Position numbers and translations under genes: made by a program
Virus record (IMG/VR): IMGVR_UViG_3300013119_000376
Span: 1-33,191 of that record
Source of the DNA: a virus
DNA length: 33,191 bases
Direction: 5' to 3' (one strand)
The notes under the pieces: generated by a model
The model's database searches: none
What the model saw: only the letters and a program-made list of their open reading frames with translations
Told to the model about the DNA's origin: nothing
Part shown: positions 13,597 through 31,239 of the stretch, piece after piece
How the letters are laid out: every line of letters starts with the position of its first letter
Numbering within the stretch: position 1 is the stretch's first letter

Positions 13597-13689
13597 ATGT
13601 TAGAGGTTGTCTTAAATGTGTTCTTAGTACAGTTAATGATTTTATCTTTTTTTATTATGGGTGCCTTGATCAGTAAGTTGAAAGGGTAA
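13597..13689 (+). CDS. 30-aa single-TM mini-protein
   Basis: A short frame preceded by AGGAAGAGGATAAG, the first coding unit after the structured stretch. It is almost entirely hydrophobic (VVLNVFLVQLMILSFFIMGA) with a basic end (SKLKG). It may be a small holin or antiholin of the lysis cassette that follows. The short length lowers confidence. Confidence 0.5.
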   Translation: MLEVVLNVFLVQLMILSFFIMGALISKLKG

Positions 13690-13693
13690 GGTA

Positions 13694-13888: not shown

Positions 13889-14557
13889 ATGAATAACAAA
13901 GATTATATTCTCAGAGTGGAGGACCAGGGGTCAGGTGCCAAGTGTGTAGCATATGCGTTGACTACTGTCATTGAATATCAAGCTAGGAGACAGCATGGCC
14001 TGATGATGAACTTATCACCAGACTATATCTACGACAGGCGAATTAATAAATCTGGTAGTGGCATGTATAAATCAGATGCTATAAATATAGCGAGTAATGG
14101 GGTTGCTACTGAATATCATCATTACAGGCGTCCAATAGGTCTTAAGACATATGTTAGTATCGGTTCGTACGTCAATCCGTCTAACATGGGTGAAGTTAGA
14201 AAGTTATTACGGGATGGGTTTATTGCACTACTTGGTGGTAGTGGTCACTCAAAGGTACTGGTGGAAGCTAGTGTACTGGTGGATGATGATGAGGAAGGGT
14301 TCCTGGTACTAGATACAGCTGGCAGTAAAAAATGGAAGTATATAAGTGGGTTAGGTATAGATCTAGGTCAGTGTTATTTCGTAACAGATGTGAAATATGA
14401 CAAACAGAATGACTGGGCACATGAAGGACAATGGTTAAAGATATTATATTATGATTGGTACATGCGGTTTGTTAGGAATCCTAATCTTGGTAAAGCGATA
14501 GTGATAGGGAGTGTATTTTTATTAGCGTTGGCAGTACGATTTTTATTAGGTTTATGA
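13889..14557 (+). CDS. Membrane-anchored papain-like cysteine peptidase
   Basis: A 222-aa protein with 'EDQGSGAKCVAYALTTVIE' (Cys19) as in C1 'DQG.cGsCwAf' motifs, 'GGSGHSKVLVEA' (His120) as the catalytic histidine, and 'GFLVLDTAGSKKW' where papains have the Asn-Ser-Trp loop; here Asp142 replaces Asn. The C-terminal 20 residues (IGSVFLLALAVRFLLGL) are a TM anchor after a basic stretch. It lies between zinc-ribbon, TM and M15 peptidase genes. It may cut host envelope proteins during lysis or process a phage protein. Family by motif is convincing; the target is unknown. Confidence 0.75.
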   Translation: MNNKDYILRVEDQGSGAKCVAYALTTVIEYQARRQHGLMMNLSPDYIYDRRINKSGSGMYKSDAINIASNGVATEYHHYRRPIGLKTYVSIGSYVNPSNMGEVRKLLRDGFIALLGGSGHSKVLVEASVLVDDDEEGFLVLDTAGSKKWKYISGLGIDLGQCYFVTDVKYDKQNDWAHEGQWLKILYYDWYMRFVRNPNLGKAIVIGSVFLLALAVRFLLGL

Positions 14558-15164: not shown

Positions 15165-16499
15165 ATGCCTAAAATAATATTCCCGGCGACTATCGATGGC
15201 CATGATAAACAGGAGCAGGTATGGAGAGATAAGCATAGATTTATCGACATCTTAGCAGGGAGACGTGGTGGTAAAGACTGGATATGTGCCAGGGTAGCGG
15301 TAAAGCGTGCTTATCAAGACCTAGTCGATGGTAAGGGTTATAAGGACTGGAGCATAGAATCAGGGATACCACGATTATTGTATTGGTGTGTAGCACCTGA
15401 TTACAGTATTAACAAGGTACAGCAGAAAGAGATACTAAAGATAGCATTACCAGCTGGTCTTGTGATAAAGAACGAACTAAAGAGTAAACCACCAAGGCTA
15501 TGGCTAAAGGGTGGGATACTATTTGAATTTAAATCGGCTGAACATCCAGACAAGTTAGTAGCTGAGGGTCTTAACGGGATATACGTCACAGAGACAGCCC
15601 GTCTGAAGCCGACAGTATGGAACGACAATTTAAGACCGACACTATCAGATAACCAGGGATGGGGCTTATTTGCGACTACCCCGCTAGGCTACAATTGGTA
15701 TGCTGACCAGATACGCAAGGTGGCTGTAGAGGGCGAATATCACGACAATGAGTGGAAGGCGTACTATTGGAAGACTATAGATAACACAAAAAAACCAGGG
15801 TTAGTAGAAGAAGTAGAGAAAGCCAAGGCAACGATGCCAGCTAAGTATTTCTGTAGGAACTATGAAGCTAGCTTAGACGCCTTCCAGGGGCAGATATATG
15901 ATGGATTCGATTATAACGTTCACGTCGATGATATCAAGTTTGAACGTGACAAGTATAAGATTGTGGTCGGAGGTATTGACTGGGGATATACTCACAGAGG
16001 GGTCATTGTCGTTGCAGGTATCACCACTGACGATAACGTTCATGTCCTCGTTGACATGGCCGAGTCCAGGATTCCTGTGGTATCAAGAGATGATTCAGCA
16101 GATGATTGGTGTAAGCGTGCTTTAAGGTTACAAGAAGAATATGATGTCGAGATGTTTTATGCAGGACCAGACCAACCTGAATCTATCGACCAGATGGCGT
16201 ATGAGGGTGTAAGGGTACAGAAAGCTAACAACTCAGTCATGGAAGGAATCCAGGCTGTATCGACCTTGATGACAATAGATGATAACGGACATACCAGGTT
16301 AAGGATAGATAAGAATTGTACAAACCTTATCCAGAATATAAGAGCACAACGTTGGATTCAGCAAAAAGATGGTGACGAGAGCGAGAAGCCAGAAAAGATC
16401 AACGATGATAGTAATGATGCTCTGAGATACGCAATCTATAGTGCGGGACACTGGTTTGATCATGGGTTCGAAGATAGGGTAGAGCATATTTATTTATAG
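15165..16499 (+). CDS. terL: Terminase large subunit
   Basis: A 444-aa packaging motor. The N-terminal ATPase has Walker A 'AGRRGGKDW' (residues 31-39) and a motif III 'GLFATTPLG'. At the Walker B position it reads 'GIYVTETARLKP' (about 138-149): the catalytic Glu is kept but the usual Asp is Thr. The C-terminal RNase H-like nuclease shows 'GGIDWGYTHRG' (Asp272) and 'INDDSNDALRYA' (about 413-424). It cuts concatemeric DNA and drives packaging with terS. A short upstream lysis cassette separates the two. Confidence 0.9.
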   Translation: MPKIIFPATIDGHDKQEQVWRDKHRFIDILAGRRGGKDWICARVAVKRAYQDLVDGKGYKDWSIESGIPRLLYWCVAPDYSINKVQQKEILKIALPAGLVIKNELKSKPPRLWLKGGILFEFKSAEHPDKLVAEGLNGIYVTETARLKPTVWNDNLRPTLSDNQGWGLFATTPLGYNWYADQIRKVAVEGEYHDNEWKAYYWKTIDNTKKPGLVEEVEKAKATMPAKYFCRNYEASLDAFQGQIYDGFDYNVHVDDIKFERDKYKIVVGGIDWGYTHRGVIVVAGITTDDNVHVLVDMAESRIPVVSRDDSADDWCKRALRLQEEYDVEMFYAGPDQPESIDQMAYEGVRVQKANNSVMEGIQAVSTLMTIDDNGHTRLRIDKNCTNLIQNIRAQRWIQQKDGDESEKPEKINDDSNDALRYAIYSAGHWFDHGFEDRVEHIYL

Positions 16500-16522
16500 T
16501 TAAAAATATGGAGAGTATTAAA

Positions 16523-18577
16523 ATGGGGTTATTTACAACACTTGGTATGAAATTCCTTCAAATGGGAGGTTATGGCCAGAAAGATACTTCAGTACCACAG
16601 GATTGGTTCTTCTCAGGCTTCCCTGGTACTGATTCAGAAAGCTCTGTGACACTCAATAACCCAAATGAGTTTCTAAGGGCTTATCAGACAATAAATTACA
16701 TCGCTAAAGATACAAGTAGGATAGCGTCAGATATAGCGTCGTTAGAATGGAAAATAGTAGATAGCGATGACAGAGAGATAAGTAATAGCATTATATTTGA
16801 AATATTAAGACGACCAGCTGATGGCATAACTGGTAACCAGTGGCTAAAGATGATAGTCCTGCATCTTTTATTGGATGGCAATGCCTTTATATTAAAAGAT
16901 CATAAGAATATGCTCACTTTCGAACAGGGTAGATTTGATTCACTCCCGATATTAAATCCAGCGTTAGTGGATGTTATGGACCAGGATGGCGAGATAACAA
17001 GTGCTGGTGATGATAAACAGCTAGATAATATAAACAGATACAGGCTTTCATTAGCCAAGAATAGAACGATAAGCCTGGAACCTGATGTAATACACCATAT
17101 CAAAACATTGGGCCCGAATAATACTCTAAGGGGTATGGGCGTAGTGCAACAGAATGCACCTGCGCTAGACGCAAACAGAATACAGACAATTTTTAATAAC
17201 CAGTTCTTTAAACATGGTGGCAATACTAACATGGTCGTTGAGATGGAAAAGGCCATGGGTCCACAGGAATTTGCGATGTTTAAACGTCAATTCCGTGGTG
17301 AATATGGCGGTAGGGATAACTGGAGTAAGATAATGGTCGCACCATCAGGTGCAAAGGTTAAGGCCTTAAACCTCTCACAGCGGGATATGGAGTTCTTGGA
17401 ACAACGAAAGATGACACGTGAAGATATTGACGCGATGTTTGGTATCCCGCCATTGATAAGTGGTGCGTTTAACCAGGTCAAGTATGACACAGCGAGAGAG
17501 CAGGAGCGAGTATATACGACACACACGCTGATGCGGTTAGCTAATCCGATAGCGGATTCGTTGAGTATCCTCATCCAGGAGATACAGCCCAACGTTTTCT
17601 TTAAGTTTGTACCACCACAGATAATCGACAAAGAAAAGGCCAATACTATAGCTAAGGATCTATTTGACCGTGGTGTTATAACTGGGAATGAATATCGTGA
17701 GATGCTAGGTAAAGAGTTAAGTGATGATCCAGAACTAGAAAAGCGTTGGATAACATTCAATTACGTACCCCTGGATTTTGCTGCTGAACCAGCTCCGGTA
17801 AACACAGAGAATCCTGTCAAGCCAAATGAAGATAGTAAGAAAGACTTACAATGTGGTTGTAATAGCTTGACAAAAGCAACAGGGAAACAATTACAGATAC
17901 ACAGACGAGCAAGGCGCACAAAGGACGTTATAGAGAAGAAGATATTTAAGGAGGTCCAGAAGTATTATAAGGACCTTGAATCACGTGCATTGGCTGGATT
18001 AGAGAAGTCTTGGGGTGATATGCAGGAAAAGGGTATAAATATCGATGATGTGTTTGATTTCACTGAGGAAGTCATCGAGGCTACAGCTGCTGGTAAGAGG
18101 ATGTTTACTTCAGCGATAACAATAGGGCTGAAGGATGTAAACGAGATATTTGATATTGATATAGATACTACTACTAAGAATCCACGGTTAGTCCTAGCGG
18201 TCGAAAAGGTAAATCGTGATTATGTAGCACAGACATTAAACACACGCAGGGAAGAGCTAAGGAAAATAATATTCACAGCACAAAACGAGGGTGTATCTGT
18301 AGCTGAGGTAAAAGGGAGAATAGAGGATAGCTTTAAGAAACTCAATCATGGACCACAGGAGGCCTGGAAAACCATGAGGATAGCCAGGACAGAGGCTGCC
18401 AATGCTTGGGATCAGTCAGCGTTTATCGGATATGAGGAACTAGGTGTCACGGTTGTCGATGTAGTAGGCTGTGAGGATAACGAGACGGATTGTAATAAAC
18501 AGAATATCCCGATGAACGAAGTGGCTGGTCTTGTGTTCCACCCAAACCACACAGGCACCATCGTTCCACGGGGTTAA
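16523..18577 (+). CDS. Portal protein fused to MuF-type head morphogenesis domain
   Basis: A 684-aa protein. The start at 16523 is chosen because GGAGAG (16510-16515) precedes it; an ATG at 16508 has no ribosome site. Residues up to about 420 form an HK97-type portal ('AYQTINYIAKDTSRIASDIA', 'HLLLDGNAFIL', 'FNNQFFKHGG', 'DIDAMFGIPPLISG'). After a linker, residues 450-684 show a phage-Mu gpF-like domain ('MRIARTEAANAWDQSAFIGY', 'VVGCEDNETDC', 'FHPNHTGTIVP'). Usually these are two genes; here they are one. The portal is the DNA gate and connector; MuF domains sit inside the head. Confidence 0.85.
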   Translation: MGLFTTLGMKFLQMGGYGQKDTSVPQDWFFSGFPGTDSESSVTLNNPNEFLRAYQTINYIAKDTSRIASDIASLEWKIVDSDDREISNSIIFEILRRPADGITGNQWLKMIVLHLLLDGNAFILKDHKNMLTFEQGRFDSLPILNPALVDVMDQDGEITSAGDDKQLDNINRYRLSLAKNRTISLEPDVIHHIKTLGPNNTLRGMGVVQQNAPALDANRIQTIFNNQFFKHGGNTNMVVEMEKAMGPQEFAMFKRQFRGEYGGRDNWSKIMVAPSGAKVKALNLSQRDMEFLEQRKMTREDIDAMFGIPPLISGAFNQVKYDTAREQERVYTTHTLMRLANPIADSLSILIQEIQPNVFFKFVPPQIIDKEKANTIAKDLFDRGVITGNEYREMLGKELSDDPELEKRWITFNYVPLDFAAEPAPVNTENPVKPNEDSKKDLQCGCNSLTKATGKQLQIHRRARRTKDVIEKKIFKEVQKYYKDLESRALAGLEKSWGDMQEKGINIDDVFDFTEEVIEATAAGKRMFTSAITIGLKDVNEIFDIDIDTTTKNPRLVLAVEKVNRDYVAQTLNTRREELRKIIFTAQNEGVSVAEVKGRIEDSFKKLNHGPQEAWKTMRIARTEAANAWDQSAFIGYEELGVTVVDVVGCEDNETDCNKQNIPMNEVAGLVFHPNHTGTIVPRG

Positions 18578-18587
18578 GGAGTCCATT

Positions 18588-18662
18588 ATGTTTGAATGTA
18601 CACTGGCGATATCACTAAGTATCTTATTGTATGTAGTAGCGGCTAATTGGCCAAAAAGATAA
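18588..18662 (+). CDS. 24-aa single-TM mini-protein
   Basis: A tiny frame with a clear ribosome site (TTAAGGAGTCC, 18575-18585). It encodes a short hydrophobic helix (CTLAISLSILLYVVAANW) and a basic end (PKR). It sits between portal and protease genes. It may only couple translation of its neighbours. Tentative. Confidence 0.35.
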   Translation: MFECTLAISLSILLYVVAANWPKR

Positions 18663-18675
18663 AGGAGTTGATTTT

Positions 18676-19533
18676 ATGTTGCAGGTAGTGGTCGATAATA
18701 GCGATTTTGACAATTTGAGGACAATATTTATAGATAAAGGGAAGGGAATCAAGGCTGAGGTAGGAATCATCGGAAAAAAGACAAAAATAAAAAGTTTTGT
18801 CTTTCCCGAGCAATCAGGATGGTGTGTAGCCACCATGAAAGCATGGGTTGATAGTAATAGTACAAAAATATCACATTTCGACTTAGAAGACGATATAGAC
18901 GCCAAGGCGTTGGAATTGCTATCTAACTCAGAAGAGTATGACTTAAAAACGATACTTATAGGTAAAAAGTATGGGGAATTCAGTATCAAGAAGACTGACG
19001 ACGAATCAAGGGATGGAATTCGTATCAGTGGGCTTGCTTCGACGTTTGGGAATATTGACAGGCATGGTGATATTATTGCCAAGGGTGCTTTCAAGAAGAC
19101 CATTCGCGGGCTGGGTAAATTACCGATGCTTATGGATCATTCACATGAGACTAACTCACAGGCTGGCAGCTTCGATAAGTTTAAAGAGACTGACGAAGGG
19201 CTTGTAGTAAGTGGATTCCTGTCGAGGACACAACAAACGGAGCATGTGATAAGACTTATCGAAGATGGTCATCTAGACACATTATCTATAGGTGGCCTTT
19301 TTAAGTTTGCTGTCGAACCAAACAAGAAAGGAAACAGTATAATCGAGGAGGTGAATCTATTCGAAGTCTCAATAGTTACAATACCAGCTAATCCAAAAGC
19401 TCAATTCGGGCTTAAATCGCTGATGCTTCCAGGGAAACCGGAGATACTAGTCGATAAATCGACGAACTCAAAGGGATTATCACCAGAAGAGAAAGCGGAA
19501 TGGATCAAAAAAGAAATAAGGGAGGGAAAATGA
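18676..19533 (+). CDS. HK97-type prohead protease
   Basis: A 285-aa protein with AAAGGAG upstream. The first ~105 residues (including 'SFVFPEQSGWCVATMKAWVD') match an N-terminal domain found in fused protease-scaffold proteins of phages (XkdF-like). The serine protease begins near 113: 'ISGLASTFGNIDRHGDIIAK', 'LPMLMDHSHE' with catalytic His about 153, and 'HLDTLSIGGLF' with catalytic Ser about 204, as in the U35 family. It cleaves the capsid delta domain during maturation. Its end overlaps the capsid gene start (ATGA). Confidence 0.88.
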   Translation: MLQVVVDNSDFDNLRTIFIDKGKGIKAEVGIIGKKTKIKSFVFPEQSGWCVATMKAWVDSNSTKISHFDLEDDIDAKALELLSNSEEYDLKTILIGKKYGEFSIKKTDDESRDGIRISGLASTFGNIDRHGDIIAKGAFKKTIRGLGKLPMLMDHSHETNSQAGSFDKFKETDEGLVVSGFLSRTQQTEHVIRLIEDGHLDTLSIGGLFKFAVEPNKKGNSIIEEVNLFEVSIVTIPANPKAQFGLKSLMLPGKPEILVDKSTNSKGLSPEEKAEWIKKEIREGK

Positions 19534-20876
19534 TGGAAATCGGAATCAGGATATCGGAATTATTCGGTCAAGGGAAGTGCGTGGATGAGATAGTGGATGT
19601 GGTATGTGCCGAATACACTGATAAAGATGCTGAGTTTATAAAAAAAGCAGTGCAGGAGGTGCAGGTGGACATCAAAAAACAGAAAGATGAATCAGATAAG
19701 AAAGAAGCTGATCTACAGAAGCTGATAGATAAGGCTGTTGACGAGAGGTTGAAGAATATCAAATCACCAGGTGTGATAGAAACGAAAGGAGTTGACGTAA
19801 AGGTGGACCCTAAAATAGAAGTTAAGGAGAGCCCTGATCTTTGGAAAAAAGAAATGGCTGATATGCTTTTAGCAAAAGATGCTATTTCTAAGCGTAAAGC
19901 TAGTGAGAAAGATTACGATAAAGTCCGTGATCTCAACAGAAAATGGGCGGAACAGAGAGAAAAGGCTACTGGTGTACGTACTGATAGTGATGCAGCAGGT
20001 GGTTATTTTGTTCCTGAAACATTTGATGCAGAAGTTGATAAGTTGATTTATAGAGACTCACAATTACTCAACGCTATTACCATCCGCCAGGGTGGAGAGC
20101 ATACAGAGATCAACGGGTTAGCTACATTTGATCTTTCTTTCAGGTCTGATCAAAATACTGCCTTTGGGACAACAGTGCCTACATTCAGCCGTAATGAGAT
20201 AAAATATCGTGAAGCTGGTGTTCTCGTTCCAGTATCTAATGCGGAATTAAGAAGCTCGTTTTACAATGTTATTTCCGAGTTGACCGAGCAGGCTGCTGAT
20301 GCGCAGATCAGACTGCTTGAACCACTGGTTATTCATGGTAAGACTGCGACTGATCCATTCTTGGGTATATGGCATACGTCGGGTATTACCAGCGTTGACG
20401 CTGCCAATAAAGCTGGTTCCGGTGAAGTCAAGAGTGCAGACCTTACAAATGCTTACGCAAATATTGCCGCACAAGACAGAGTGGGTGCAAGCGCAGTTAT
20501 GGATACCCGTGAAGCATTAGTGTTACTAACCGAGAAAGCTTCAGATGGCCATAATCTTGGCGAAGTGATACGTGAGGGGGGTGGCCTTATTCATGTACCT
20601 ACTGGGATGAAGATCGTGATTTCTGATACATTGACAAGAGTTCTTACTAAGACCGCTAACAGTGGCGGGACAATGGTTCCCGTTGTCTGTGGTAATCTCA
20701 GGGCCATGAGAATCTATCGTGAAGGCGGTTTAATGGTTGATACATCTAACGAAGTATACTTTACGTCTGACCAGCTTGGAGTGCGATTTATGGTACGCTA
20801 CAAGCAAGGGGTACCTGATAATTCAGTGACAAAGTTTGTAAGGATCACAGACCTGAAGAATAACGCGCCATCCTAA
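19530..20876 (+). CDS. Major capsid protein, HK97 fold
   Basis: ATG 19530 is preferred: GGGAGGG (19520-19526) precedes it and it overlaps the protease stop; a start at 19500 would lie deep inside that gene. The 448-aa product has an N-terminal helical delta (scaffold) part of about 140 residues ('EADLQKLIDKAVDERL'), then 'DSDAAGGYFVPETFDAEV' where HK97-type proteins are cut and the mature protein starts. The remainder (for example 'VPVSNAELRSS', 'SAVMDTREALVLLTE', 'GLMVDTSNEVYFTSDQLGVR') fits the HK97 A- and P-domains. Confidence 0.9.
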   Translation: MMEIGIRISELFGQGKCVDEIVDVVCAEYTDKDAEFIKKAVQEVQVDIKKQKDESDKKEADLQKLIDKAVDERLKNIKSPGVIETKGVDVKVDPKIEVKESPDLWKKEMADMLLAKDAISKRKASEKDYDKVRDLNRKWAEQREKATGVRTDSDAAGGYFVPETFDAEVDKLIYRDSQLLNAITIRQGGEHTEINGLATFDLSFRSDQNTAFGTTVPTFSRNEIKYREAGVLVPVSNAELRSSFYNVISELTEQAADAQIRLLEPLVIHGKTATDPFLGIWHTSGITSVDAANKAGSGEVKSADLTNAYANIAAQDRVGASAVMDTREALVLLTEKASDGHNLGEVIREGGGLIHVPTGMKIVISDTLTRVLTKTANSGGTMVPVVCGNLRAMRIYREGGLMVDTSNEVYFTSDQLGVRFMVRYKQGVPDNSVTKFVRITDLKNNAPS

Positions 20877-20897: not shown

Positions 20898-21263
20898 ATG
20901 AAGAAGTTAATAGCATTGAGTTTAGTTGCCCTGTTCTCCTGCTTGGCAGTTGCGGAAATTATAACAACCACAGCAATCGGAACAGCGTCAGTACCTGCAA
21001 TTGTGACTATCAATTCCCAGGCTGGTAGGCAGATCATTGTATATAGTGCAGAGTCGGTAGCGGAGACAACTCATAAAATCGGGATATACACCGGTTCTTA
21101 TGCAGGCGGGACCACGATGAATGAACTAGTCGGTACCGTAAATAGTGACACGCTTGCTGGTAACAATGGGTTGCCTGTTTATGTTGAGGGTATAAATGAA
21201 GCTGTCAGATTTCTGACGACTACTACAGTCAACGCGCTCATAGTTTCTTATGAGATAAGGTAA
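20898..21263 (+). CDS. Exported small beta protein after the capsid gene
   Basis: A 121-aa protein with AAAGGAATAAC as ribosome site. It starts with a textbook Sec signal peptide (basic MKK, hydrophobic core to residue ~16, AVA cleavage site at about 17-19). The mature part is beta-rich and polar ('ITTTAIGTASVPAIVTINS', 'HKIGIYTGSYAGG', 'NALIVSYEIR'). Position suggests a head-decoration protein, but a signal peptide would take it out of the cytoplasm. Signal peptide seen; role unknown. Confidence 0.75.
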   Translation: MKKLIALSLVALFSCLAVAEIITTTAIGTASVPAIVTINSQAGRQIIVYSAESVAETTHKIGIYTGSYAGGTTMNELVGTVNSDTLAGNNGLPVYVEGINEAVRFLTTTTVNALIVSYEIR

Positions 21264-21274
21264 GTAGTCTGGTA

Positions 21275-21306
21275 TATGGGTGGGGGCTTTTCAACCTCCA
21301 CCCATA
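21275..21306 (+). terminator. Strong hairpin, attenuator or mRNA-stability element
   Basis: TATGGGTGGGGG (21275-21286) pairs with CCTCCACCCATA (21295-21306), 12 bp with one G-U pair and an 8-nt loop. No T-run follows, so it is not a classic terminator. It lies after the capsid and first exported protein, where it could reduce read-through to the rest or protect abundant capsid mRNA. Confidence 0.6.
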
Positions 21307-21328
21307 CAAAACTAAAGGAGTAAAAAAA

Positions 21329-21763
21329 ATGTTTAAAAAAGCTAGCATATTATTGATGGCTATCATCGTGGCGCTAGCCCTGAATAGTGGGTTAGCTTTT
21401 GCAATCGGATATCAGTTAGGTCCAAATGTAGTCGATGATGTTTTAATACTTAACACCGGTAGTTATATCGAGTTTAGCTTTGCTGACTTCCAGATAACAC
21501 CAAATAATACCGTTTATGTCGATGTTGATGGGGTAGGTGATTTTGAAGGTATAGATTGTGTATTCCCGTATGTATCATCTGGCAGTATTACAACTGTCGG
21601 ACTCGACTGGTATAACCTGCAAGGGGTATCGATCAACAATGAAACGCTGACAAGCGGCACTGATATTACAGACTTTGATAGTAATATAGTCAGGATCAGT
21701 ATCACTAATCCTGATAATACAAATACCGTTAATATTACGGGGAATATTATTCTTAGAAACTAA
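21329..21763 (+). CDS. Exported beta-rich protein
   Basis: A 144-aa protein with AAAGGAG upstream. Residues 1-25 form a signal peptide (MFKKASILLMAIIVALALNS, then AFA). The mature domain is rich in Asn, Thr, Ser and Asp with beta alternation ('NTVYVDVDGVGDF', 'GSITTVGLDWYNLQG', 'TNTVNITGNIILRN'), like a jelly-roll surface protein. It belongs with the next two exported proteins. No family is recognised. Confidence 0.7.
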   Translation: MFKKASILLMAIIVALALNSGLAFAIGYQLGPNVVDDVLILNTGSYIEFSFADFQITPNNTVYVDVDGVGDFEGIDCVFPYVSSGSITTVGLDWYNLQGVSINNETLTSGTDITDFDSNIVRISITNPDNTNTVNITGNIILRN

Positions 21764-21777
21764 CAAGGAGTAGATGA

Positions 21778-23949
21778 ATGAAAAAATTAGCTACATTATT
21801 TTTATTTGCGCTATTAGCTGCAAGTATATCATTTGGCATCACCAAAAAAGGGACTGATGGGACTATATTTATCTATAATGTAGTTTCAACAAACGCTATT
21901 GCTGTGACTAATGATAATGTAGCTATTGGACGTACTACAGCAGTTGTTAAATTACATGTGGGTGGAGATGTATCTGCAAACAATTATTATGGAAATGGGT
22001 CTAATCTTACTGGTATTGTAGCTACCGATATTGTAGATACTGCTGTTACTAATAATTATTTTTTCAGTGCAGTATCCATCAATAATAATGTTAGCGTAAA
22101 TCAGCTGATATCAGCGGGGACAGTAAATGCAAGCGTATTTATAGGAGATGGCTCAAATCTTACTGGTTTGCCAGTCAGTGGGCTTACTACCACCAACGCC
22201 GATGCCAGATATCTACTTGAATCCAATAATCTTTCTGATCTTGATAGCGCCAGTACAGCCAGGACTAACCTTGGCCTTGGTTCTTTGGCAGTTAAATCTA
22301 ATATAAATAATGATGATTGGTCTGGTGCTGACTTAGCAATAGTAAATGGCGGCACTGAATCTAGTACTGCTGCCGGTGCAAGGGTTAATCTAGGACTCGA
22401 AGATATGAGTCTACAAGCAAGTAATAATATAACAATCACTGGTGGCTCAGTAACTGGTATTACAGATATTGCTGTAGCTGATGGTGGTACAGGAGCAAGT
22501 GCAGCTAGTTCTGCAAGAACTAATCTAGGATTGGGTGATATATCATTACAGGCAAGTAACAACGTAATAATTACTGGTGGTTCCATAACAGGATTATCCA
22601 CCTTGGCTTCAAATGTAATACTTTCTACAACAGTTTCGGCTAGTGGCACAATATCAGCCAACGCTTTTGTTGGTGACGGGTCAGCATTAACCGGGTTACC
22701 AGGCGGTGGTGATATGTCAGCAGCTAATAATTTGTCAGATGTAGCTGATATAGGTACATCGAGGACTAACTTAGGGCTAGACGACATGGCCCTACAGGCA
22801 TCGAATAATGTTACAATATCAGGTGGGTCTATTACAGGGATAGCAGACCTTGCAATAGCTGATGGGGGTACTGCAACATCTAGCGCCACCGGTGCCAGGA
22901 TCACTCTTGGAATGGATGACATGTCCATACAAGCAAGTAATAATGTTAATATTTCTGGTGGTGCCATTACTGGTATTACTGACTTAGCAATAGCGGACGG
23001 TGGAACCGGGGCATCAGATGAGGCTACAATGAAATCAAACCTCAATTTAGAGACAGGAACGGATCTACAAGCATGGGATGATGATCTTGATGATATTGCT
23101 GCTCTTAGTCAAACGTCGCCGAACATAATGATATCGGACGGTACCGATTGGACTGTCATCAACCCCGACACGGATGAGTGGCGAGGTAAATCAGGTTTGG
23201 CAATAGATAGCGATGTACAAGCATGGAACACGCATCTTGACGACCTTGCAGATGGAGAGTTGACTGGGTCAAAAGTAGGTAGCGGAATAAGCGCGACCAA
23301 TATAACCGCGGGCACACTTGCGGATGCTAGGCTTGAGACCACTGTTAATGTGAGTGAAGTCGCGACTGATAGATTGACTATGGGTGGGAATATAGATATG
23401 GGTGCAAATTATATCAGCGGCGATGGCGACAGTGAGGGTATTTTTATTGAGACAGACGGGAAAGTGGCGATAGCTACTGGCAACGCCACTGTTGCCTTGG
23501 AAGTGTTAGGTACAGTAAACGCAACAGCATTTTCTGGGGATGGAAGCCAGTTAACAGGAATAGCTGCCGGAGGAGGTGGTGGTGCTGCAACAACACATAA
23601 TATAGCATTTTCAGTAAACGGTGAATGGGCGCAATCAGTTACAACCAACATACTGGAAAATTACCTGCTGACATTCTACGAGTGGAATGGTGGGGCTGCC
23701 ACTATGACGAGTTTTAAAGCAAGGGTGACGGATGAGGATACTGGTGCCTCAGAGCCTGCCGCTAGATTATTTATCAACGGCAGTGCAGTATCGACAGTGA
23801 ACACGGCTGCAGGCTCCTGGACCACTTCGACAACTTTTGTATCGGCAGCTTTGGTAGATGGTGATGATATAGAGATTGGTACTGTAGCTGGAGGTTCTAA
23901 TAATGATTCAAAAAACCTTACAGTACATATCATAGCTGTGGAGGATTAA
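21778..23949 (+). CDS. Exported 723-aa tail-fibre-like repeat protein
   Basis: It starts with a signal peptide (MKKLATLFLFALLAASISFG). The next part has several 'GDGSxLTG' units (including 'ANNYYGNGSNLTGI', 'ASVFIGDGSNLTGL', 'ANAFVGDGSALTGLPGG', 'ATAFSGDGSQLTGI') and a series of 45-residue units of 'ARTNLGL..M.LQASNN' and 'GGSITGI.DLAIADGGT' type, as in phage side-tail fibres. The C-terminus (from ~610) has a Gly-rich hinge and a beta domain ('HNIAFSVNGEWAQSVT', 'LTVHIIAVED'). The fibre plan says host binding; the signal peptide says export. That contradiction is unresolved. Confidence 0.8.
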   Translation: MKKLATLFLFALLAASISFGITKKGTDGTIFIYNVVSTNAIAVTNDNVAIGRTTAVVKLHVGGDVSANNYYGNGSNLTGIVATDIVDTAVTNNYFFSAVSINNNVSVNQLISAGTVNASVFIGDGSNLTGLPVSGLTTTNADARYLLESNNLSDLDSASTARTNLGLGSLAVKSNINNDDWSGADLAIVNGGTESSTAAGARVNLGLEDMSLQASNNITITGGSVTGITDIAVADGGTGASAASSARTNLGLGDISLQASNNVIITGGSITGLSTLASNVILSTTVSASGTISANAFVGDGSALTGLPGGGDMSAANNLSDVADIGTSRTNLGLDDMALQASNNVTISGGSITGIADLAIADGGTATSSATGARITLGMDDMSIQASNNVNISGGAITGITDLAIADGGTGASDEATMKSNLNLETGTDLQAWDDDLDDIAALSQTSPNIMISDGTDWTVINPDTDEWRGKSGLAIDSDVQAWNTHLDDLADGELTGSKVGSGISATNITAGTLADARLETTVNVSEVATDRLTMGGNIDMGANYISGDGDSEGIFIETDGKVAIATGNATVALEVLGTVNATAFSGDGSQLTGIAAGGGGGAATTHNIAFSVNGEWAQSVTTNILENYLLTFYEWNGGAATMTSFKARVTDEDTGASEPAARLFINGSAVSTVNTAAGSWTTSTTFVSAALVDGDDIEIGTVAGGSNNDSKNLTVHIIAVED
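22381..23000 (+). repeat. 45-codon repeats in the exported fibre-like gene
   Basis: 'LQASNN'-type units begin at 22411, 22546, 22792 and 22927. The spacing of 135 bases (45 codons) is seen twice, with a different segment of 111 bases inserted between the second and third. Each is accompanied by a 'DGGT' linker and an 'ARTNLGL'-type turn. The reverse-strand open frame across 22101-23045 is an artefact of this repeat. Confidence 0.75.
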
Positions 23950-23950
23950 C

Positions 23951-24706
23951 ATGAGATATTTATACCTAGTGTTCATTTTTATGAGTGTGTCTGTATCAAT
24001 AAACGCAACTACCGGTATATTGGATAGAGGAGGGCTTGGTAATGATGCCTTCACAGTGCTATTAGTCCAATCTGATACTAATGATGAGTCAACAACATTC
24101 ACCGACACATCAAGAGGAGGAACCCTACATACTGTGTCTGCACAAGGAAATATTAATCATGAAGTAGACCAGAAGAAGTTCGGTTCCACTTCTATTCAAA
24201 GTGATGGCACAACAGATTATCTTACTATTCCTGACAGTGATGATTGGTATATGGGTGGTGGTGATTGGACTATTGATATGTGGGCTAGATTTAACGTATT
24301 GGATGTACAACAGAATTTTTACTCCCAGTGGGTTGATACGGCTGGAGGGCATATTAATTTCTACTGGGATGCTACTAATGGCCCAACGATAGTGATGGGT
24401 CGCCCAGGGGGAGCAAAATATCTTAATTATTTAAATCCAGGGAGTGTTGCTGGATGGAGTACGAATACCTGGTACCACATTGCGCTGGTAGTAAATAATG
24501 GCACTTGTAACATATATCGGGATGGGGTGTCCCTCGTTAGTGGTGCAACTTCTGGGGATTATCCGCAGATAGCAACAAATATTGGTTTAGGGGCGCTGAG
24601 TCACAGCGGCGCTAATAGCCTTAACGGGTATGCGGACGAGATTCGAATCACTAAAGGTTTGGCTAGGTGGATAAAGGATTTTACACCACCTAATAGAATG
24701 AATTAA
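23951..24706 (+). CDS. Exported LamG/concanavalin-like lectin protein
   Basis: A 251-aa protein starting two bases after the previous stop. Residues 1-20 are a signal peptide (MRYLYLVFIFMSVSVSINA). The mature part shows the LamG pattern: 'KKFGSTSIQSDGTTDYLTIP', 'GGGDWTIDMWARF', 'STNTWYHIALVVNNGTCNIY', 'NGYADEIRITKGLARW', and an ending at 'FTPPNR'. A related LamG domain is built into the tail protein at 29812. LamG domains bind glycans or proteins. It is probably exported together with its upstream neighbours. Confidence 0.8.
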   Translation: MRYLYLVFIFMSVSVSINATTGILDRGGLGNDAFTVLLVQSDTNDESTTFTDTSRGGTLHTVSAQGNINHEVDQKKFGSTSIQSDGTTDYLTIPDSDDWYMGGGDWTIDMWARFNVLDVQQNFYSQWVDTAGGHINFYWDATNGPTIVMGRPGGAKYLNYLNPGSVAGWSTNTWYHIALVVNNGTCNIYRDGVSLVSGATSGDYPQIATNIGLGALSHSGANSLNGYADEIRITKGLARWIKDFTPPNRMN

Positions 24707-24716: not shown

Positions 24717-25097
24717 ATGTATGCAGTAAGAAAGAGCCCTATTGAAGTAATCGAAATAATAGCGGGTGATAGTATAAATAATTATCCAGAAAATAAATTC
24801 CGGACAATGAACGCTGTGCCAGGTTTAATAAATCGTCATCTGAAATGGCATAATGGCAATCCAGATACAGGGATCTTAATAGAAAAAACTAGCATAGAAA
24901 AAATTATTGCAGATCAACAGATGTCAGATTCTAGTATCGATACATTGAGAAAAGATAAACTAAAAGAATTACGGAAAAATATACTTGAAAAAATAATTGA
25001 CCAGGATTTAGTTTACCAACAAAAGGGTAGCGAGATACTGGCAGCACAGAATGAAGAAGAACTCGCTCTTATAAATATTATAAACCTGACTGATTAA
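24717..25097 (+). CDS. Unknown 126-aa protein
   Basis: It has a strong ribosome site (AAGGAGGATATT) and an N-terminal 'MYAVRKSPIEVIEI', with no signal peptide. The middle ('VPGLINRHLKWHNGNPDTGI') is polar. The C-terminal half is helical and charged ('LRKDKLKELRKNILEKIIDQ', 'AAQNEEELALI'). It lies between the exported proteins and the neck genes. Position suggests a virion or assembly function; no family is recognised. Confidence 0.55.
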   Translation: MYAVRKSPIEVIEIIAGDSINNYPENKFRTMNAVPGLINRHLKWHNGNPDTGILIEKTSIEKIIADQQMSDSSIDTLRKDKLKELRKNILEKIIDQDLVYQQKGSEILAAQNEEELALINIINLTD

Positions 25098-25109: not shown

Positions 25110-25709
25110 ATGTCGGCAACAGTAGGAAGTATAACTAACGGCTATTGTACCCTGAAACAGCTCCAGGATAGCCTAGGACGCAAAATCAACGGACCTTTTG
25201 ATGCCAAGGGTACGATAATGGAGCAATCGATTACAAGGGCATCTAGGTTCATTGATAAGGTCACTAGTAGCATATTTTATAGCAACACGATAACAAGTGA
25301 ATCCATTGATGTGTATAACATATCTGACAGTGGGTTATTTATTGGGCCTGGCAATGAGTGTAGTGTGGTTTATTTTCCGGCTCCAGTTATATCTGATGTA
25401 ACAATAGTCGAAGGTGGAACAACCTTAGTGGAAGACACTGATTATTATATATACAAAACACAAGGTTTTATAGAAAAAGGTAGTGCATGGTCAAGGACTA
25501 GAAAGGATATTGTGATCACAGCTACGTATGGTTACGCTTCTGTGCCTGCCGATATAGAGCAAGCTTGTATTTCTATAGCCGAGATATTAAGTGGTCTAGT
25601 GTCCAAGATGCGCGTGACCGATGAGGGGGTATTTGAAGAGATAGGGGGTGCATCGATACCGTCAAATATCATGGATATATTGCGTAGGTATCGTAGAGAA
25701 TATGTCTGA
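25110..25709 (+). CDS. Head-tail connector (adaptor) protein
   Basis: A 199-aa protein with AAAAGGAG upstream. The N-terminal 'CTLKQLQDSLG' and helical 'IMEQSITRASRFIDKVTSSI', then 'DVTIVEGGTTLVEDTDYYIY' and 'DIVITATYGYASVPADIEQA' resemble gp6/gp15-like adaptors that dock beneath the portal. The helix-rich C-terminus ('SNIMDILRRYRREY') fits this fold. Its 3' end overlaps the start of the next gene. Identity is by pattern and position. Confidence 0.7.
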   Translation: MSATVGSITNGYCTLKQLQDSLGRKINGPFDAKGTIMEQSITRASRFIDKVTSSIFYSNTITSESIDVYNISDSGLFIGPGNECSVVYFPAPVISDVTIVEGGTTLVEDTDYYIYKTQGFIEKGSAWSRTRKDIVITATYGYASVPADIEQACISIAEILSGLVSKMRVTDEGVFEEIGGASIPSNIMDILRRYRREYV

Positions 25710-26148
25710 TTTTGAAGTAACATTTGATTCTAATGGTGAACTCAAAAACTGGATGACAAAGAATATCAGACGATTAATACCAGAAATGGATAAGGCCGTT
25801 CGAAACGCGACAATATTTGGGTTAACAAAAACTAAAACAACGCTATCAAAAAGAACTGGGATGTTAAGAAGATCATACAACCAAAGGAAAAGGGGTTCAT
25901 TATCACGAGAGATATTTAGCAATATAAAATATGCCCAGGCTGTTGAATTTGGATACAAGGCACACCTAATAAAACCAGTGCGGAAGAAAGCCTTATCCTG
26001 GAAGACTGGCGGTAAGAGGTTCTTCAGTAAGGGACACATGATACCAAGGTTCAAAGGTACACATAAAATTTCAGATATTGTTTTTCCTGGTGTAAAGAAT
26101 CGGTTTAGATTAGAGGTCATCCTGGCGATGCGGAGATTATTGAGATGA
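25702..26148 (+). CDS. HK97 gp10-like neck or tail-completion protein
   Basis: The start at 25702 is chosen since it overlaps the connector stop and begins a clean N-terminus (MSDFEVTFDSNGELKN); an ATG at 25648 lies inside the upstream gene. The 148-aa product carries the typical 'KTTLSKRTGMLRRSYNQRK' with 'SNIKYAQAVEFGYKAHLIKP' motifs of the gp10 family. These motifs suit a small protein that closes the head and binds the tail. C-terminal basic residues are common in the family. Confidence 0.75.
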   Translation: MSDFEVTFDSNGELKNWMTKNIRRLIPEMDKAVRNATIFGLTKTKTTLSKRTGMLRRSYNQRKRGSLSREIFSNIKYAQAVEFGYKAHLIKPVRKKALSWKTGGKRFFSKGHMIPRFKGTHKISDIVFPGVKNRFRLEVILAMRRLLR

Positions 26149-26465
26149 ATATAGTATCAATCTTTAAATTTGTACAAAATATTGCCGGCAAATTGCTTGG
26201 TGAGAGTAACCCTATCCAGCGTGTACTGACAAAGGGGCCGATGGATGTTGCATTAAAAGATGCTGAATCAGATAACTTATTACAAAGAAGCTGGAGGCCC
26301 ATTATTATGCTTGGGTCATTCCTGTTGATCTTAGCTGATAGCTTTGGGCTTGTAAGTAACGGGTTACATCCGATGTTTTATGAGATAGTCAAGGTCGGAA
26401 CTATAGGCTACATGGTTGTTGGTAGAACGCTGGAAAAGGCGATTAAATCTGTCTGGGGGAAATAA
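26145..26465 (+). CDS. 3TM holin-like protein
   Basis: A 106-aa protein whose start overlaps the upstream stop (ATGA). 'SWRPIIMLGSFLLILADSFG' and 'KVGTIGYMVVGRTLEKAIKS' closely follow the pattern of holins with the 'SWRP...' and 'G.GGYv.gRt.Ekii' motifs (3TM, gene-transfer-agent type). An amphipathic N-terminus is present. Its place among neck and tail genes is uncommon but occurs. It could let the M15 endolysin out. Confidence 0.7.
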   Translation: MNIVSIFKFVQNIAGKLLGESNPIQRVLTKGPMDVALKDAESDNLLQRSWRPIIMLGSFLLILADSFGLVSNGLHPMFYEIVKVGTIGYMVVGRTLEKAIKSVWGK

Positions 26466-26968
26466 TGGGAGTATACACAAGCTTATTAGGTGAAGTCTAT
26501 AACAGGTTGACAAAAGCACAGCTTGAAACAAAAAAGCTTGAGAATGTTAAGCGTGTAGATATAGGTGCCAGACAACTGACTTTTGGTATAGATGAGATGC
26601 CTGCTATATTTCTGAGTATTTCTAGCATACAGGAAGATTACAACTTGATATTAAGTCAAAACCGAATATCATCCGTAGTAGATATAAAGTTGACTGTGAT
26701 TGACGGGATAGAAGATCCAAGTGTATCGAACCAATATTATGATACTGATACACGCGAGGGAATACTTTACTTGATAGAAGAAATATTGGATGTATTAAAT
26801 GAGGATACATCACAATCTCTTGACCCAAGATTTGGCAAAAACGCATTAAAGGCAAATACGGCTTTTATGGGGCCAATAGAAAAGGTCAGTGATAATATTC
26901 TTATGTGTGACATAACAATAACAGCACGTACAAATCAGTTTACTATAAATAACAGGAGAGGAGGTTGA
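26465..26968 (+). CDS. Tail terminator-like minor tail protein
   Basis: A 167-aa protein that begins directly at the end of the previous gene. Sequence features are an N-terminal helix ('SLLGEVYNRLTKAQLETKKL'), a beta core ('QLTFGIDEMPAIFLSISSIQ', 'SVVDIKLTVIDGIEDPS', 'ILMCDITITARTNQF') and a helix ('LYLIEEILDVLNED'). Size, fold pattern and place before the tail tube suggest a tail-terminator/gpU-type protein. Not certain by sequence alone. Confidence 0.55.
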   Translation: MGVYTSLLGEVYNRLTKAQLETKKLENVKRVDIGARQLTFGIDEMPAIFLSISSIQEDYNLILSQNRISSVVDIKLTVIDGIEDPSVSNQYYDTDTREGILYLIEEILDVLNEDTSQSLDPRFGKNALKANTAFMGPIEKVSDNILMCDITITARTNQFTINNRRGG

Positions 26969-26970
26969 CA

Positions 26971-27132
26971 ATGAAAATAAAATTAGTCGGATGTAAATCT
27001 GTATATATCCCTACACTTAAAATAGCAGTAGAACGCGAACAGGTGTTTGAGGTAAACAAAGAAATAGGAGTTAAATTACTAGCACAGGGTGGTAAGTTTG
27101 AGGAAGTAACAATAAAGAAAGAGGAGGGATGA
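26971..27132 (+). CDS. Unknown 53-aa protein
   Basis: GAGAGGAGGTTGAC (26956-26969) is a very strong ribosome site for ATG 26971. The product is a small basic beta protein ('MKIKLVGCKSVYIPTLKIAV', then 'QVFEVNKEIGVKLLAQGGKF') ending in a Lys/Glu tail. It fits the common small phage protein that precedes a tail-tube gene. Function unknown. Confidence 0.6.
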   Translation: MKIKLVGCKSVYIPTLKIAVEREQVFEVNKEIGVKLLAQGGKFEEVTIKKEEG

Positions 27133-27135
27133 TAA

Positions 27136-28149
27136 ATGGCTAATGAGGTTTATGTACAAGGTTATGACGGGTATGTTGGAATAGGTCTGAAGCAATCAGC
27201 AATAGGAACCAGTATCGCAGCTGATAAATTTTTACAGGTAAATCCAGATATATCACTAGTTGAAATAGAAGACGGTAAAGAGGTACTTAATACCATCAGG
27301 TTTGGTCGTAGTATGTATTCGTACAAGAGAGGACTTAAAAGAGTAGAGGGGTCGATGAGTGGTCCACTATATCCTGACAATGAATGGATGTTTGGGTTGC
27401 TTATGGGTGACAAAAACACGGTAGCGGGTGATGCTGCAACAGGGTTTACGCATACATTCAACGAAGAGGACAGCACTAATCTTTTTAGTCAAAACGGTTC
27501 AACGGTCGAAGTACACCTTGGGACTAATGATAATGTCGCCTTGAAGGACTTTGCAGGGTGTTTCCTTAGTAAACTCACCCTTAATATGCCTGCTGATGAT
27601 ATTGTGACATGGGCCATGGACCTAGTCGGAGTAAGTATGGCTACAGCTGGTGTTATATCCGCACCTACTTATACTACTGAAAATCCATACGAGGGATTCC
27701 ATGTAGACCTACAGCTAGGTTCAGCTATTGGTAGCACCGCCACCACTGAGGCTAAAGATATAGTATGGTCTATGGATAATCAAATCAAGATGTTACCCAA
27801 GCTTAATAGCCAGGCACCTGTTGGACGTGTATTAGGTAATCGTATTGTGGAATGTAGTTTTACATCTAACTTAAAGGATTTTACGTTGCAGAATCTATAT
27901 AAAAACAATACTACACAAGCAGCTAAAATAATAATCACCCACACAGCTCTGGCTGGTAGTTCTAGTGGATTCTTCACAATAACTATCAATATGCCTAATA
28001 TTGTATTTCTTGGTGATGAGGCTAACCTTAATAACTCACAAGAGATAGATCAACCTATTAGGTTCCAGGCTATACATGATGCAACTGCAGGGTATCAAAT
28101 ACAGATAACAGCTAAGAACAGTGAAACTGGAGTCTACGACATAGCTTAA
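27136..28149 (+). CDS. Tail tube (major tail) protein
   Basis: A 337-aa protein with GAGGAGGGATGAT as ribosome site. The N-terminal 'DGYVGIGLKQSAIGTSIAAD', then 'RSMYSYKRGLKRVEGSMSGP' and 'WMFGLLMGDKN' match the phage tail-tube pattern in which a beta-sandwich subunit polymerises around the tape measure. It has repeats of beta strands and a C-terminal beta domain ('NLKDFTLQNLYKNN', 'SEIDQPIRFQAI'-like). Position directly before the tape-measure gene supports the call. Confidence 0.8.
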   Translation: MANEVYVQGYDGYVGIGLKQSAIGTSIAADKFLQVNPDISLVEIEDGKEVLNTIRFGRSMYSYKRGLKRVEGSMSGPLYPDNEWMFGLLMGDKNTVAGDAATGFTHTFNEEDSTNLFSQNGSTVEVHLGTNDNVALKDFAGCFLSKLTLNMPADDIVTWAMDLVGVSMATAGVISAPTYTTENPYEGFHVDLQLGSAIGSTATTEAKDIVWSMDNQIKMLPKLNSQAPVGRVLGNRIVECSFTSNLKDFTLQNLYKNNTTQAAKIIITHTALAGSSSGFFTITINMPNIVFLGDEANLNNSQEIDQPIRFQAIHDATAGYQIQITAKNSETGVYDIA

Positions 28150-28162
28150 TAGGACTGGTAAT

Positions 28163-29812
28163 ATGGCAGATCAAAAAGCAAATATCATAGTAGGTTTAAA
28201 GGATAGGGCTACAAAGGGACTTGGGTTCCTGAAGAAGTCCGTAACAGCACTTGGTAAGGCTGCTAAGAACGCTGCGAAGGTAGGGATAGCGTTACTGGTA
28301 GCTGGCCTTGGGTTTGCCACAAAGGCAGCCATAAAGCAAGAAGAAGCTATTGTATCCTTAAACGAAGCACTGAAGGATACTGGTGCGTTTTCTGTAGAAG
28401 CAAGTGAAGAGATGCAGGCGTTCGCTTCCGAGCTACAAAAGGCTAGCACGTTTGGCGATGAGGCGATACTGATGGCCCAGTCCTTGCTTGTAAGGCTTGG
28501 TAAGTTATCTGGTGAAGGGCTAAAGGGTGCTACACAGGCTACTGCTGATTTATCAGCAGCCTTGGGCCTGGAACTTGAAGAAGCAGCAAAGTTGGTCGGC
28601 AAGACGCTATCAAGCTCGACAAACGCACTGACAAGGTATGGGGTAGAAGTAACTGGCGCTGTCGGTAGCCAGGAGCGGCTTAATAGTTTGATTACCAATG
28701 CCGGCAAAGTCTTTGGTGGTGCAGCACTATCAAAGACAAAATCACTCACAGGCCAGATGACACAGTTTAAGAACGAAGTCGGTGATGTTGCTGAACAGAT
28801 AGGGTCAGTATTGATTCCTGTATTAAGAGAAGAGCTGATCCCGAGGCTTAGGGAAGCAACAGAATTCTTCAGTAAATTATTTGGTAAGTTTTCTACTGGA
28901 ACAAAAAGCGTAAAAGAACTAAAGGAGGAATACCAGGGGTTAGCTAAACGATTAGAAACGATAAATAAATTAGCAGAAAAAACATCATCATTTGATTTCA
29001 CGCCTGAAATAAGCAGGATTAAATCTAATATGAATAAGATATTAGATGTATTATCTGAGAGGGAAAAAGCCGAGGCAGCCAGGAATAAGCGGTTGAAAGC
29101 AGTGAGGGATATAGCTGCACAAGATGAATTAGATACAGAAACTAAGAAATGGAACAAAATAAGAGCTATAAGGGAGGAAGCCTTTATTTTATTGGAAGAG
29201 CAAGAGATAGCACATTTCCTGAGAATGGAGGAAAACAGAAATAAGGATTTCCTTAAACAAAAATCAAGATTAGAAAAACTAAAACTATTAGAGGAACAGA
29301 TAACGGAAGAACAGGCTGAGGTCTTCAGAGAGATATCTGAAGAAAAAGTAGCAGAGGGTGAGTTTGCAGCTCAGCAGTTAATCGAGATCGCTGAAAATGG
29401 TGGCAAGGGGATTATACAGGTCGGAAAGAATCTGGCTATAAAAGAAATAGGTATATGGGTAGAAAAAGAGATAGCCAAAGCACTGGCAGCAGCTCCTGCA
29501 ACACTGGGTGCATCCCTTGCCAATATACCGCTAGTAGCCGCCGCGGGTGCCGCTGGGGTATCTGCTGTGCAAGGTATATCGTTCCGGGATGGTGGCGTAG
29601 TAAATGAATCTAATTCCGTACCAGTAGGTGGTGCTGATGATAGCCAGCGACTAGTGATCGCGGAGATGGGTGAGACTTTTAATGGTGATGGTAATGGGAG
29701 GGCTACAGATAGTAGTTCAAGCCCTATCCAAGTAAACGTAATGGTTGATAAGAAAGTATTGGCAAGAACCATTGTGGATATTACAAAACAGCAATCGGAG
29801 GGTTTGATATAA
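28163..29812 (+). CDS. Tail tape-measure protein
   Basis: A 549-aa helical protein. It begins 'IIVGLKDRATKGLGFLKKSV', followed by a hydrophobic segment ('VGIALLVAGLGFATKAA') and a phage tail tape-measure core ('AFASELQKASTFGDEAILMA', 'ATADLSAALGLELEEAAKLV', 'LTRYGVEVTG'). Long coiled-coil helices follow, and a second hydrophobic stretch near 430-470. At about 1.5 A per residue it predicts a tail near 80 nm. No tail assembly chaperone pair is present between tube and tape measure. Length sits at the short end for siphoviruses. Confidence 0.88.
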   Translation: MADQKANIIVGLKDRATKGLGFLKKSVTALGKAAKNAAKVGIALLVAGLGFATKAAIKQEEAIVSLNEALKDTGAFSVEASEEMQAFASELQKASTFGDEAILMAQSLLVRLGKLSGEGLKGATQATADLSAALGLELEEAAKLVGKTLSSSTNALTRYGVEVTGAVGSQERLNSLITNAGKVFGGAALSKTKSLTGQMTQFKNEVGDVAEQIGSVLIPVLREELIPRLREATEFFSKLFGKFSTGTKSVKELKEEYQGLAKRLETINKLAEKTSSFDFTPEISRIKSNMNKILDVLSEREKAEAARNKRLKAVRDIAAQDELDTETKKWNKIRAIREEAFILLEEQEIAHFLRMEENRNKDFLKQKSRLEKLKLLEEQITEEQAEVFREISEEKVAEGEFAAQQLIEIAENGGKGIIQVGKNLAIKEIGIWVEKEIAKALAAAPATLGASLANIPLVAAAGAAGVSAVQGISFRDGGVVNESNSVPVGGADDSQRLVIAEMGETFNGDGNGRATDSSSSPIQVNVMVDKKVLARTIVDITKQQSEGLI

Positions 29813-31239
29813 TGGCTACGTTTAACCCTAAGTTTTTGAATAAAAATCTTATCACTGATAGTTCACAGTTGATACTATCAAGTGCTGATAATAGTGCTAA
29901 TAAAGATAAGTTATTTGATAGGAATATTGAGACACAATCATCTACATCAGGAGAGACAAGTGGCACGAGGACTATAAAATGGACTACAGGATCCAATAAT
30001 ACAATCGATAGATTTTATATTCAAAACTGTAACTGGAAGGACTTCGAAATAAAACACAATTACGATTCAATAGATATCTATACAGACCTCCTGCTAGATT
30101 TCGATGGCGACCTTGTAGATGTATCCGAAACACCATTGACCGTAACTGCCAATGGTAATGCTACAACATCAGCTGCCCAAAAGAAGTTTGGCACAGAAAG
30201 CTTATTACTTGATGGCACTGGTGATTATATAACAGTGCCAGCTGATGCAAGGTTTGCATACGGTACTGGTGATTTTACATACGATTGTTGGTTTTACTTA
30301 GCTACCGACCCTAGTGTAAGCGGTGACCAAGCTATAGTAGGGACGAGAGTGAGACCTGGTGAGGTAGAGATAACTTTGACACAAGTATCTGGCTCGAATT
30401 TTACAGAAGTAGATGTCATGTTAGGTAATAATTTAGAGACCTTTACAGGCGCTACTATAACAGATTCGACGTGGTATCATATAGAAATAAGTAGGAGCAG
30501 TGGAACTTTAAGATGCTTCATTGATGGTACTTCACTTGGCACTGCCGATGCAGCTGCATATGATATTGATCAGAGCCAGATAGTCGTTGGTGTAAATGGT
30601 GGCTTAGGCAATGATTTTGACGGTTATATTGATGAGTTTAGGATAAGCAATGTAGCGAGACATACTTCGAATTTCACACCCGAAGTAGCAGCCTATGCTG
30701 CAAACACATCTGGATGGTCATTTTCTCCATCACTGGCGGTGTCTTCAGATACTGATACTGATTACTATTTTGAGATAACTAGTAGCTCATTACAGAATGT
30801 TATCGTTGCTATAACGGACACCAATACTGCGACCCAAGAGGTAAAGACCGGTCAGTTATATATTGGTACAGAAAGATTTGAGATGACAGCAGCCCAGGCT
30901 GGTAAGATAGATATTACACCAAACACGACCCAAAGACTTTTTAAATTATCAGATGGTACTAACCAAAAAGTCTTCATCAGGAAAACTATTGGATATGATT
31001 TAAACCTAAGAAATGTATCATCAACTGAAAAGGCTAATTATAAATCACTTTATGATCTGAATCAACGCGAGACATTTGTTTTTATACCTAGGCCAGCAAC
31101 ACCTACAGATTCATTTGATGGTCTAGCAACACACGTGAATTGGGTAAATAGTTTTGATATGGAGAATTACGAAGGTGATATCGATGCCAATGGGTTTTTG
31201 GGGAGGGTAAGACTTCTGCAGTCCGGGAGGTTTGGTTGA
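29812..31239 (+). CDS. Distal tail protein with inserted LamG domain
   Basis: A 475-aa protein without a signal peptide whose ATG overlaps the tape-measure stop. Residues 1-90 ('LNKNLITDSSQLILSSAD', 'FDRNIETQSSTSGE', 'RFYIQNCNWKDFEIKHN') and 305-475 ('YYFEITSSSLQNVIVAITDT', 'TGQLYIGTERFEM') are the tail parts. Residues about 93-297 form a LamG lectin domain ('KKFGTESLLLDGTGDYITVP', 'STWYHIEISRSSGTLRCFID', 'DGYIDEFRISNVARHTSNF'). That domain is clearly related to the exported LamG protein at 23951. Host-glycan binding at the tail tip is a fair inference. Confidence 0.75.
   Translation: MATFNPKFLNKNLITDSSQLILSSADNSANKDKLFDRNIETQSSTSGETSGTRTIKWTTGSNNTIDRFYIQNCNWKDFEIKHNYDSIDIYTDLLLDFDGDLVDVSETPLTVTANGNATTSAAQKKFGTESLLLDGTGDYITVPADARFAYGTGDFTYDCWFYLATDPSVSGDQAIVGTRVRPGEVEITLTQVSGSNFTEVDVMLGNNLETFTGATITDSTWYHIEISRSSGTLRCFIDGTSLGTADAAAYDIDQSQIVVGVNGGLGNDFDGYIDEFRISNVARHTSNFTPEVAAYAANTSGWSFSPSLAVSSDTDTDYYFEITSSSLQNVIVAITDTNTATQEVKTGQLYIGTERFEMTAAQAGKIDITPNTTQRLFKLSDGTNQKVFIRKTIGYDLNLRNVSSTEKANYKSLYDLNQRETFVFIPRPATPTDSFDGLATHVNWVNSFDMENYEGDIDANGFLGRVRLLQSGRFG

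Follow-up and report, generated by a model that had tools for sequence, protein, structure and literature searches.

A candidate cassette of Sec-exported, virion-type proteins next to the capsid gene of an uncultivated tailed phage

Introduction

Virion proteins routed through Sec are familiar from the filamentous phages, whose coat proteins assemble in the membrane. Capsid decoration and head fibres of the T4 Hoc and lambda gpD type involve small beta proteins and adhesive fibres whose genes lie close to that of the major capsid protein; those described are not known to bear leaders and are added to the capsid inside the cytoplasm. Exported morons also include those of the Cor, Bor and Llp type. 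In lambda, the exported protein Lom is encoded between tail genes (PMC12309495).

Here we analyze an uncultivated, metagenome-derived virus record, IMG/VR IMGVR_UViG_3300013119_000376, over its full length of 33,191 bases (the window). What the locus at 20898-24706 has in common with Lom and the exported morons is a Sec leader on products of late tailed-phage genes. Those systems, however, are single genes for outer-membrane proteins or lipoproteins without virion-type domains, whereas this phage has up to four predicted-soluble virion-type proteins plus a tail-tip gene, in an arrangement that sits beside the capsid gene and is conserved between distant phages. The likeness to Hoc and gpD lies in the small beta proteins and adhesive fibres near the capsid gene; neither the product of gene 20898 nor that of 21329 (genes are named by their first base), however, had a sequence match to such a protein, and fold searches with a low-confidence 21329 model gave no significant match either. 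Genes 21778 and 23951 share their repeat and domain content with GDGSxLTG/NGGTGAS fibres and LamG tail proteins, but a relative in locus L008 and the window's own LamG tail protein (29812) have no leader. Sec routing is also common to filamentous phages; the window, in contrast, encodes a terminase, a portal and a tape measure and belongs to a tailed phage of the HK97 fold.

Materials and methods

Export leaders were scored with our own rule-based scorer, which applies fixed rules for the n-, h- and c-regions. Relatives (designated by locus numbers, L008 etc.) were gathered from IMG/VR by capsid, terminase and portal protein searches. The interval between capsid and adaptor genes (the slot) was compared in 12 distinct phages, the window included, whose capsid gene matched well and whose slot could be read.

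Results and discussion

The first-pass annotation had placed the leader-bearing genes inside the structural module, and this was borne out by Pfam and PHROG searches. Terminase, portal, protease and capsid genes (15165-20876) lie to the left of the cassette; adaptor, neck, holin-like, tail and tape-measure genes (25110-29812), followed by tail-tip genes, lie to the right. The left border of the slot is the HK97-type major capsid protein gene at 19500-20876 (Phage_capsid PF05065, 7e-20), and the cassette begins directly after it, which is a usual place for capsid decoration genes. The slot holds, in this order, 20898, 21329, 21778, 23951 and a small cytosolic protein gene at 24717-25097, whose product is partially similar to its L095/L016 counterpart and whose type is often the single gene in the slot of leaderless relatives. 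The right border is formed by a head-tail adaptor gene at 25110-25709 (phrog_442, 3e-14; 35% identity to the L016 gene and 41% to the L017 gene). The slot genes and the two border genes are on the plus strand, and those of the cassette are spaced by 1-65 bases with a strong ribosome site at each. A strong plus-strand stem-loop (-23 kcal/mol) at 21264-21328, between the first and second cassette genes, has no T run and was not called as a terminator. The holin-like gene in the neck region (26145-26465; PF11351, phrog_3427) lies apart from the M15-type endolysin gene at 14684.

An uncultivated, metagenome-derived record could in principle be a chimeric assembly or a phage contig with host genes in it. 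Such an artefact is exceedingly improbable here and was rejected: two more metagenomes yielded contigs with the same cassette, agreeing over both borders at 99.9-100%, five relatives have the same arrangement (see below), and the GC content is even, with no foreign base composition. Between the window and one of these contigs, 3300013118_000277, there are 15 differences over 13.7 kb, 13 of which fall within 98 bases (22695-22792) of the fibre gene 21778, where 8 of the 11 differing codons are synonymous. Copying of this segment from another repeat of the fibre gene was ruled out, and the variant looks like an imported allele.

Genes 20898, 21329, 21778, 23951 and 32509 had been annotated as beginning with signal peptides, and our reanalysis confirms both the starts of these open reading frames, each preceded by an AGGAG/AAGGA-type (Shine-Dalgarno) ribosome site, and the leaders themselves. 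The latter read MKKLIALSLVALFSCLAVA followed by E (20898), MFKKASILLMAIIVALALNSGLAFA followed by I (21329), MKKLATLFLFALLAASISFG followed by I (21778), MRYLYLVFIFMSVSVSINA followed by T (23951) and MKKILGICLFCLMVFTILA followed by T (32509). By our scorer all five have a basic n-region, a hydrophobic h-region and small residues at -3 and -1 with no lipobox, as is characteristic of Sec/SPase I leaders, and they are the top-scoring plus-strand genes of the window (20898, 7.3; 21329, 7.8; 23951, 5.3; 32509, 6.5). Among 400 shuffles of each N-terminus the real score was reached by none for 20898 and 21329, by 11 for 21778, by 9 for 23951 and by 3 for 32509; the leaders of 21778 and 23951 are therefore the weakest and only moderately strong. 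A threshold of 5.3 was passed by 0.99% of 2,529 control genes from other phage loci, a background comparison that is flattered in that the threshold equals the score of the weakest of the five and was picked after the five were known. The recurrence of leaders in relatives, however, does not hang on this threshold alone, and in 95 terminase-related loci there was no other locus with more than two leader genes in a row.

Judged from these sequences, the five proteins are very probably exported. If the leaders were instead hydrophobic N-terminal extensions serving normal virion assembly in the cytoplasm, this would agree with the resemblance of all mature parts to virion proteins. This scenario is nevertheless very unlikely, given that most members have an A-x-A-type site at the right distance, a basic n-region and a length of about 16-25, that a homologue of 32509 has no leader, and that a distant relative encodes a leader-bearing protein with 126 cysteines.

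The mature parts had been described as fibre repeats, LamG lectin and beta proteins, and they indeed proved to be virion- or adhesin-like. Gene 20898 (20898-21263, signal peptide 20898-20954) encodes a predicted exported small beta protein of 121 aa with a mature part of 102 aa, here called family B. Its homologue L114:5693 (28% over 130 aa, E 7e-6) likewise follows the capsid gene directly and has a leader; homology to L097:10923 was not supported, and a single-sequence structural model was unusable (pLDDT 48). Gene 21329 (21329-21763, signal peptide 21329-21403) encodes a predicted exported beta-sandwich protein of 144 aa, family A, whose low-confidence model (pLDDT 63) is all-beta. Fold searches with this model found generic beta-sandwiches only, none of them significant. 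Neither the 20898 nor the 21329 family has a match above cut-off in Pfam, PHROGs or NCBIfam, and both are unannotated there. Nanobody-like profile matches were judged to be chance. Gene 21778 (21778-23949, signal peptide about 21778-21837) encodes a predicted exported phage fibre of 723 aa with GDGSxLTG and NGGTGAS repeats, which matches tail-fibre PHROGs and Rhizobium phage tail fibres. Gene 23951 (23951-24706, signal peptide 23951-24007) encodes a predicted exported LamG/ConA-like lectin of 251 aa (Pfam Laminin_G_3 PF13385, 9.5e-16, 58.7 bits against a cut-off of 27.6); a leader-bearing protein in the same slot of another phage, L107:7424, shows a weak, sub-cutoff LamG match. PADLOC anti-phage defence models gave no match at E 0.01.

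Across phages the mature parts of cassette proteins are related at about 20-30% identity. The 21329 family has members in the window, L104, L097 and L114, all in the same slot, and a mature-part profile run over all open reading frames of the loci gathered at that stage recovered these four only. The window protein is 30% identical to the L104 member over 140 aa (E 9e-13), and the relationship to the L097 member is seen in a shuffle test (z 6.6, 0/500). A leader is present in 4/4 members, that of L114 following from an internal start at 6387. The 20898 family, known from the window and L114, has a leader in both, and L114 also contains a leader-bearing relative of the fibre (L114:7042, E 5e-6); L107 possibly has another. 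The order 20898-type gene, 21329-type gene, fibre gene is common to the window and L114, while a third leader-bearing family (DTFRVI) is common to L097, L104 and L115. Retention of leaders at such low mature identity argues for selection on export.

Whether related phages keep the cluster had been raised as a check in the first-pass annotation, and the answer is yes in part: 6/12 phages carry leader-bearing genes in the same slot, namely four each in the window and L107, three each in L097, L104 and L114 (where the contig ends) and one in L115. In L017, L095, L108, L118, L120 and L123 the slot has no leader genes and at most one small cytosolic gene. The cassette is thus not essential, since half of the close relatives do without it. 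In a capsid-plus-portal tree both main groups hold carriers and non-carriers and three changes are needed, which favours neither a single origin nor transfer of the cassette.

Further leader-bearing genes were seen near the capsid genes of other phages. L136/L179, of a more distant portal lineage, have four scored leader-bearing genes in the capsid-proximal region; at 4766-9307 of L179 one of them encodes a protein of 1,513 aa with 126 cysteines, beside the three further ones. Such a protein is plausible only if folded in an oxidising compartment, an observation that is suggestive and stands outside our core claim. In L139 a leader-bearing protein of 597 aa (12712-14505) is encoded directly before the capsid gene; by eye a metalloprotease-like motif, HEIAHSMGFSS, can be made out along with two calcium-binding repeats resembling those of dockerins, and Pfam gave no match. 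Upstream of the terminase in L110, L111 and L112 we noticed, again by eye, sugar aminotransferase-like and glycosyltransferase-like genes, suggesting glycan modification by these phages.

The fifth leader-bearing gene, 32509-33191 on the plus strand (signal peptide 32509-32565), encodes a predicted exported Gly-rich tail-tip adhesin and is cut by the record end. Its reading frame carries over without a shift to the left end of the window (base 1) and reaches a stop near base 166, giving a full protein of about 283 aa. As this gene links the two record ends in frame, the record probably represents a complete, circularly permuted genome of about 33.2 kb, in which no terminal repeat was found. 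The protein matches L095:18369 (38% over 50 aa, E 1.8e-6), which occupies the same place after a tail gene of the 31236 type (47% identical) but begins immediately behind the stop that precedes it and lacks a leader. Either the tail-tip protein therefore gained an export signal or the relative lost one. The neighbouring tail protein 29812-31239 contains an inserted LamG domain that separates two parts (43% and 39% identity) which adjoin each other in the homologue L095:16323-17111.

The reading we prefer, at slightly less than an even chance, is that 20898-24706 is an accessory cassette of Sec-exported, SPase I-processed proteins which attach to virions outside the cytoplasm. Starting from the leaders, homology, position and recurrence, which can be read directly from the sequence, we infer export, a soluble state and a function along the following lines. 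The proteins would be expressed from the phage's late head operon, exported via Sec, cleaved by signal peptidase I and folded outside the inner membrane. There they would stay soluble for want of an anchor, because all five lack a lipobox and a second transmembrane segment and their C-termini show no sorting signal recognisable by eye. When the cell lyses they would meet the virions, families A and B, the fibre and the lectin attaching to the capsid and 32509 to the tail tip, and the outcome would be an adhesive particle decoration added outside the cytoplasm. Attachment to virions is favoured by the location beside the capsid gene, by the fibre and lectin domains and by the apparent change of route of the tail-tip protein.

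The chief rival is an exported shield, in which soluble periplasmic or surface proteins mask receptors or glycans and block superinfection in the manner of single-gene morons. Export signals combined with glycan-binding-type folds are in line with such a role, lambda Lom provides a precedent for an exported protein encoded among tail genes (PMC12309495), and the cassette is optional in the group, as accessory genes are. Against this, no membrane or outer-membrane anchor is present, and one of the five proteins is a tail-tip homologue. Matches to a promoter or terminator of the cassette's own were at chance level only, so that expression looks tied to the late head genes, which would be late for exclusion; a lysogeny-style moron with its own promoter likewise found no support above chance. 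Also, no integrase or repressor was recognised among the genes examined and there is thus no sign of a lysogenic stage. We regard the shield as rather unlikely and, with modest confidence, favour virion attachment outside the cytoplasm over it. Surface display on the infected cell, as proposed in the first-pass annotation, is not supported as worded, since no anchor was seen and a partner would be needed. The accompanying statement that such proteins should not be exported was too strong in view of the single exported late-region phage proteins already known (lambda Lom, PMC12309495).

Quite unlikely is a third scenario, in which the proteins leave with the lysate as adhesins or decoys, bind debris, matrix or competing cells and never rejoin a virion. 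Soluble, secreted and adhesive proteins, as predicted here, would suit it; position in the head operon and the phage-fibre kinship of 21778 and 32509, however, give no reason for a free form.

No cultured relatives were found for the capsid, 20898 and 32509 proteins or for the 21329 homologues in L097 and L104, and tblastn with 20898 and the latter two retrieved nothing from 50,697 phage records. In the search for a host, a capsid scan of GTDB genomes found nothing, a terminase scan gave 31-36% matches only, and a capsid profile had no match in the genomes of L098, L099 and a few phylum-mates of L098. A description of such a cassette was not found in the open-licence literature.

Conclusions

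The new element here is a conserved cassette, beside the capsid gene, of several genes for virion-type proteins with export leaders. More tentatively still than virion attachment itself, we suggest that some uncultivated tailed phages may assemble part of the virion outside the cytoplasm, with Sec-exported late proteins coating finished capsids and tail tips at lysis. If true, proteins folded in the periplasm would give the particles an adhesive coat beyond the reach of cytoplasmic folding. The virions of tailed phages are taken to be assembled entirely in the cytoplasm; the cassette would either break this rule, by decoration from outside, or shield the infected cell with the exported products of several genes. 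Under either reading, further systems of this kind could be sought by a simple computational search for the leader.
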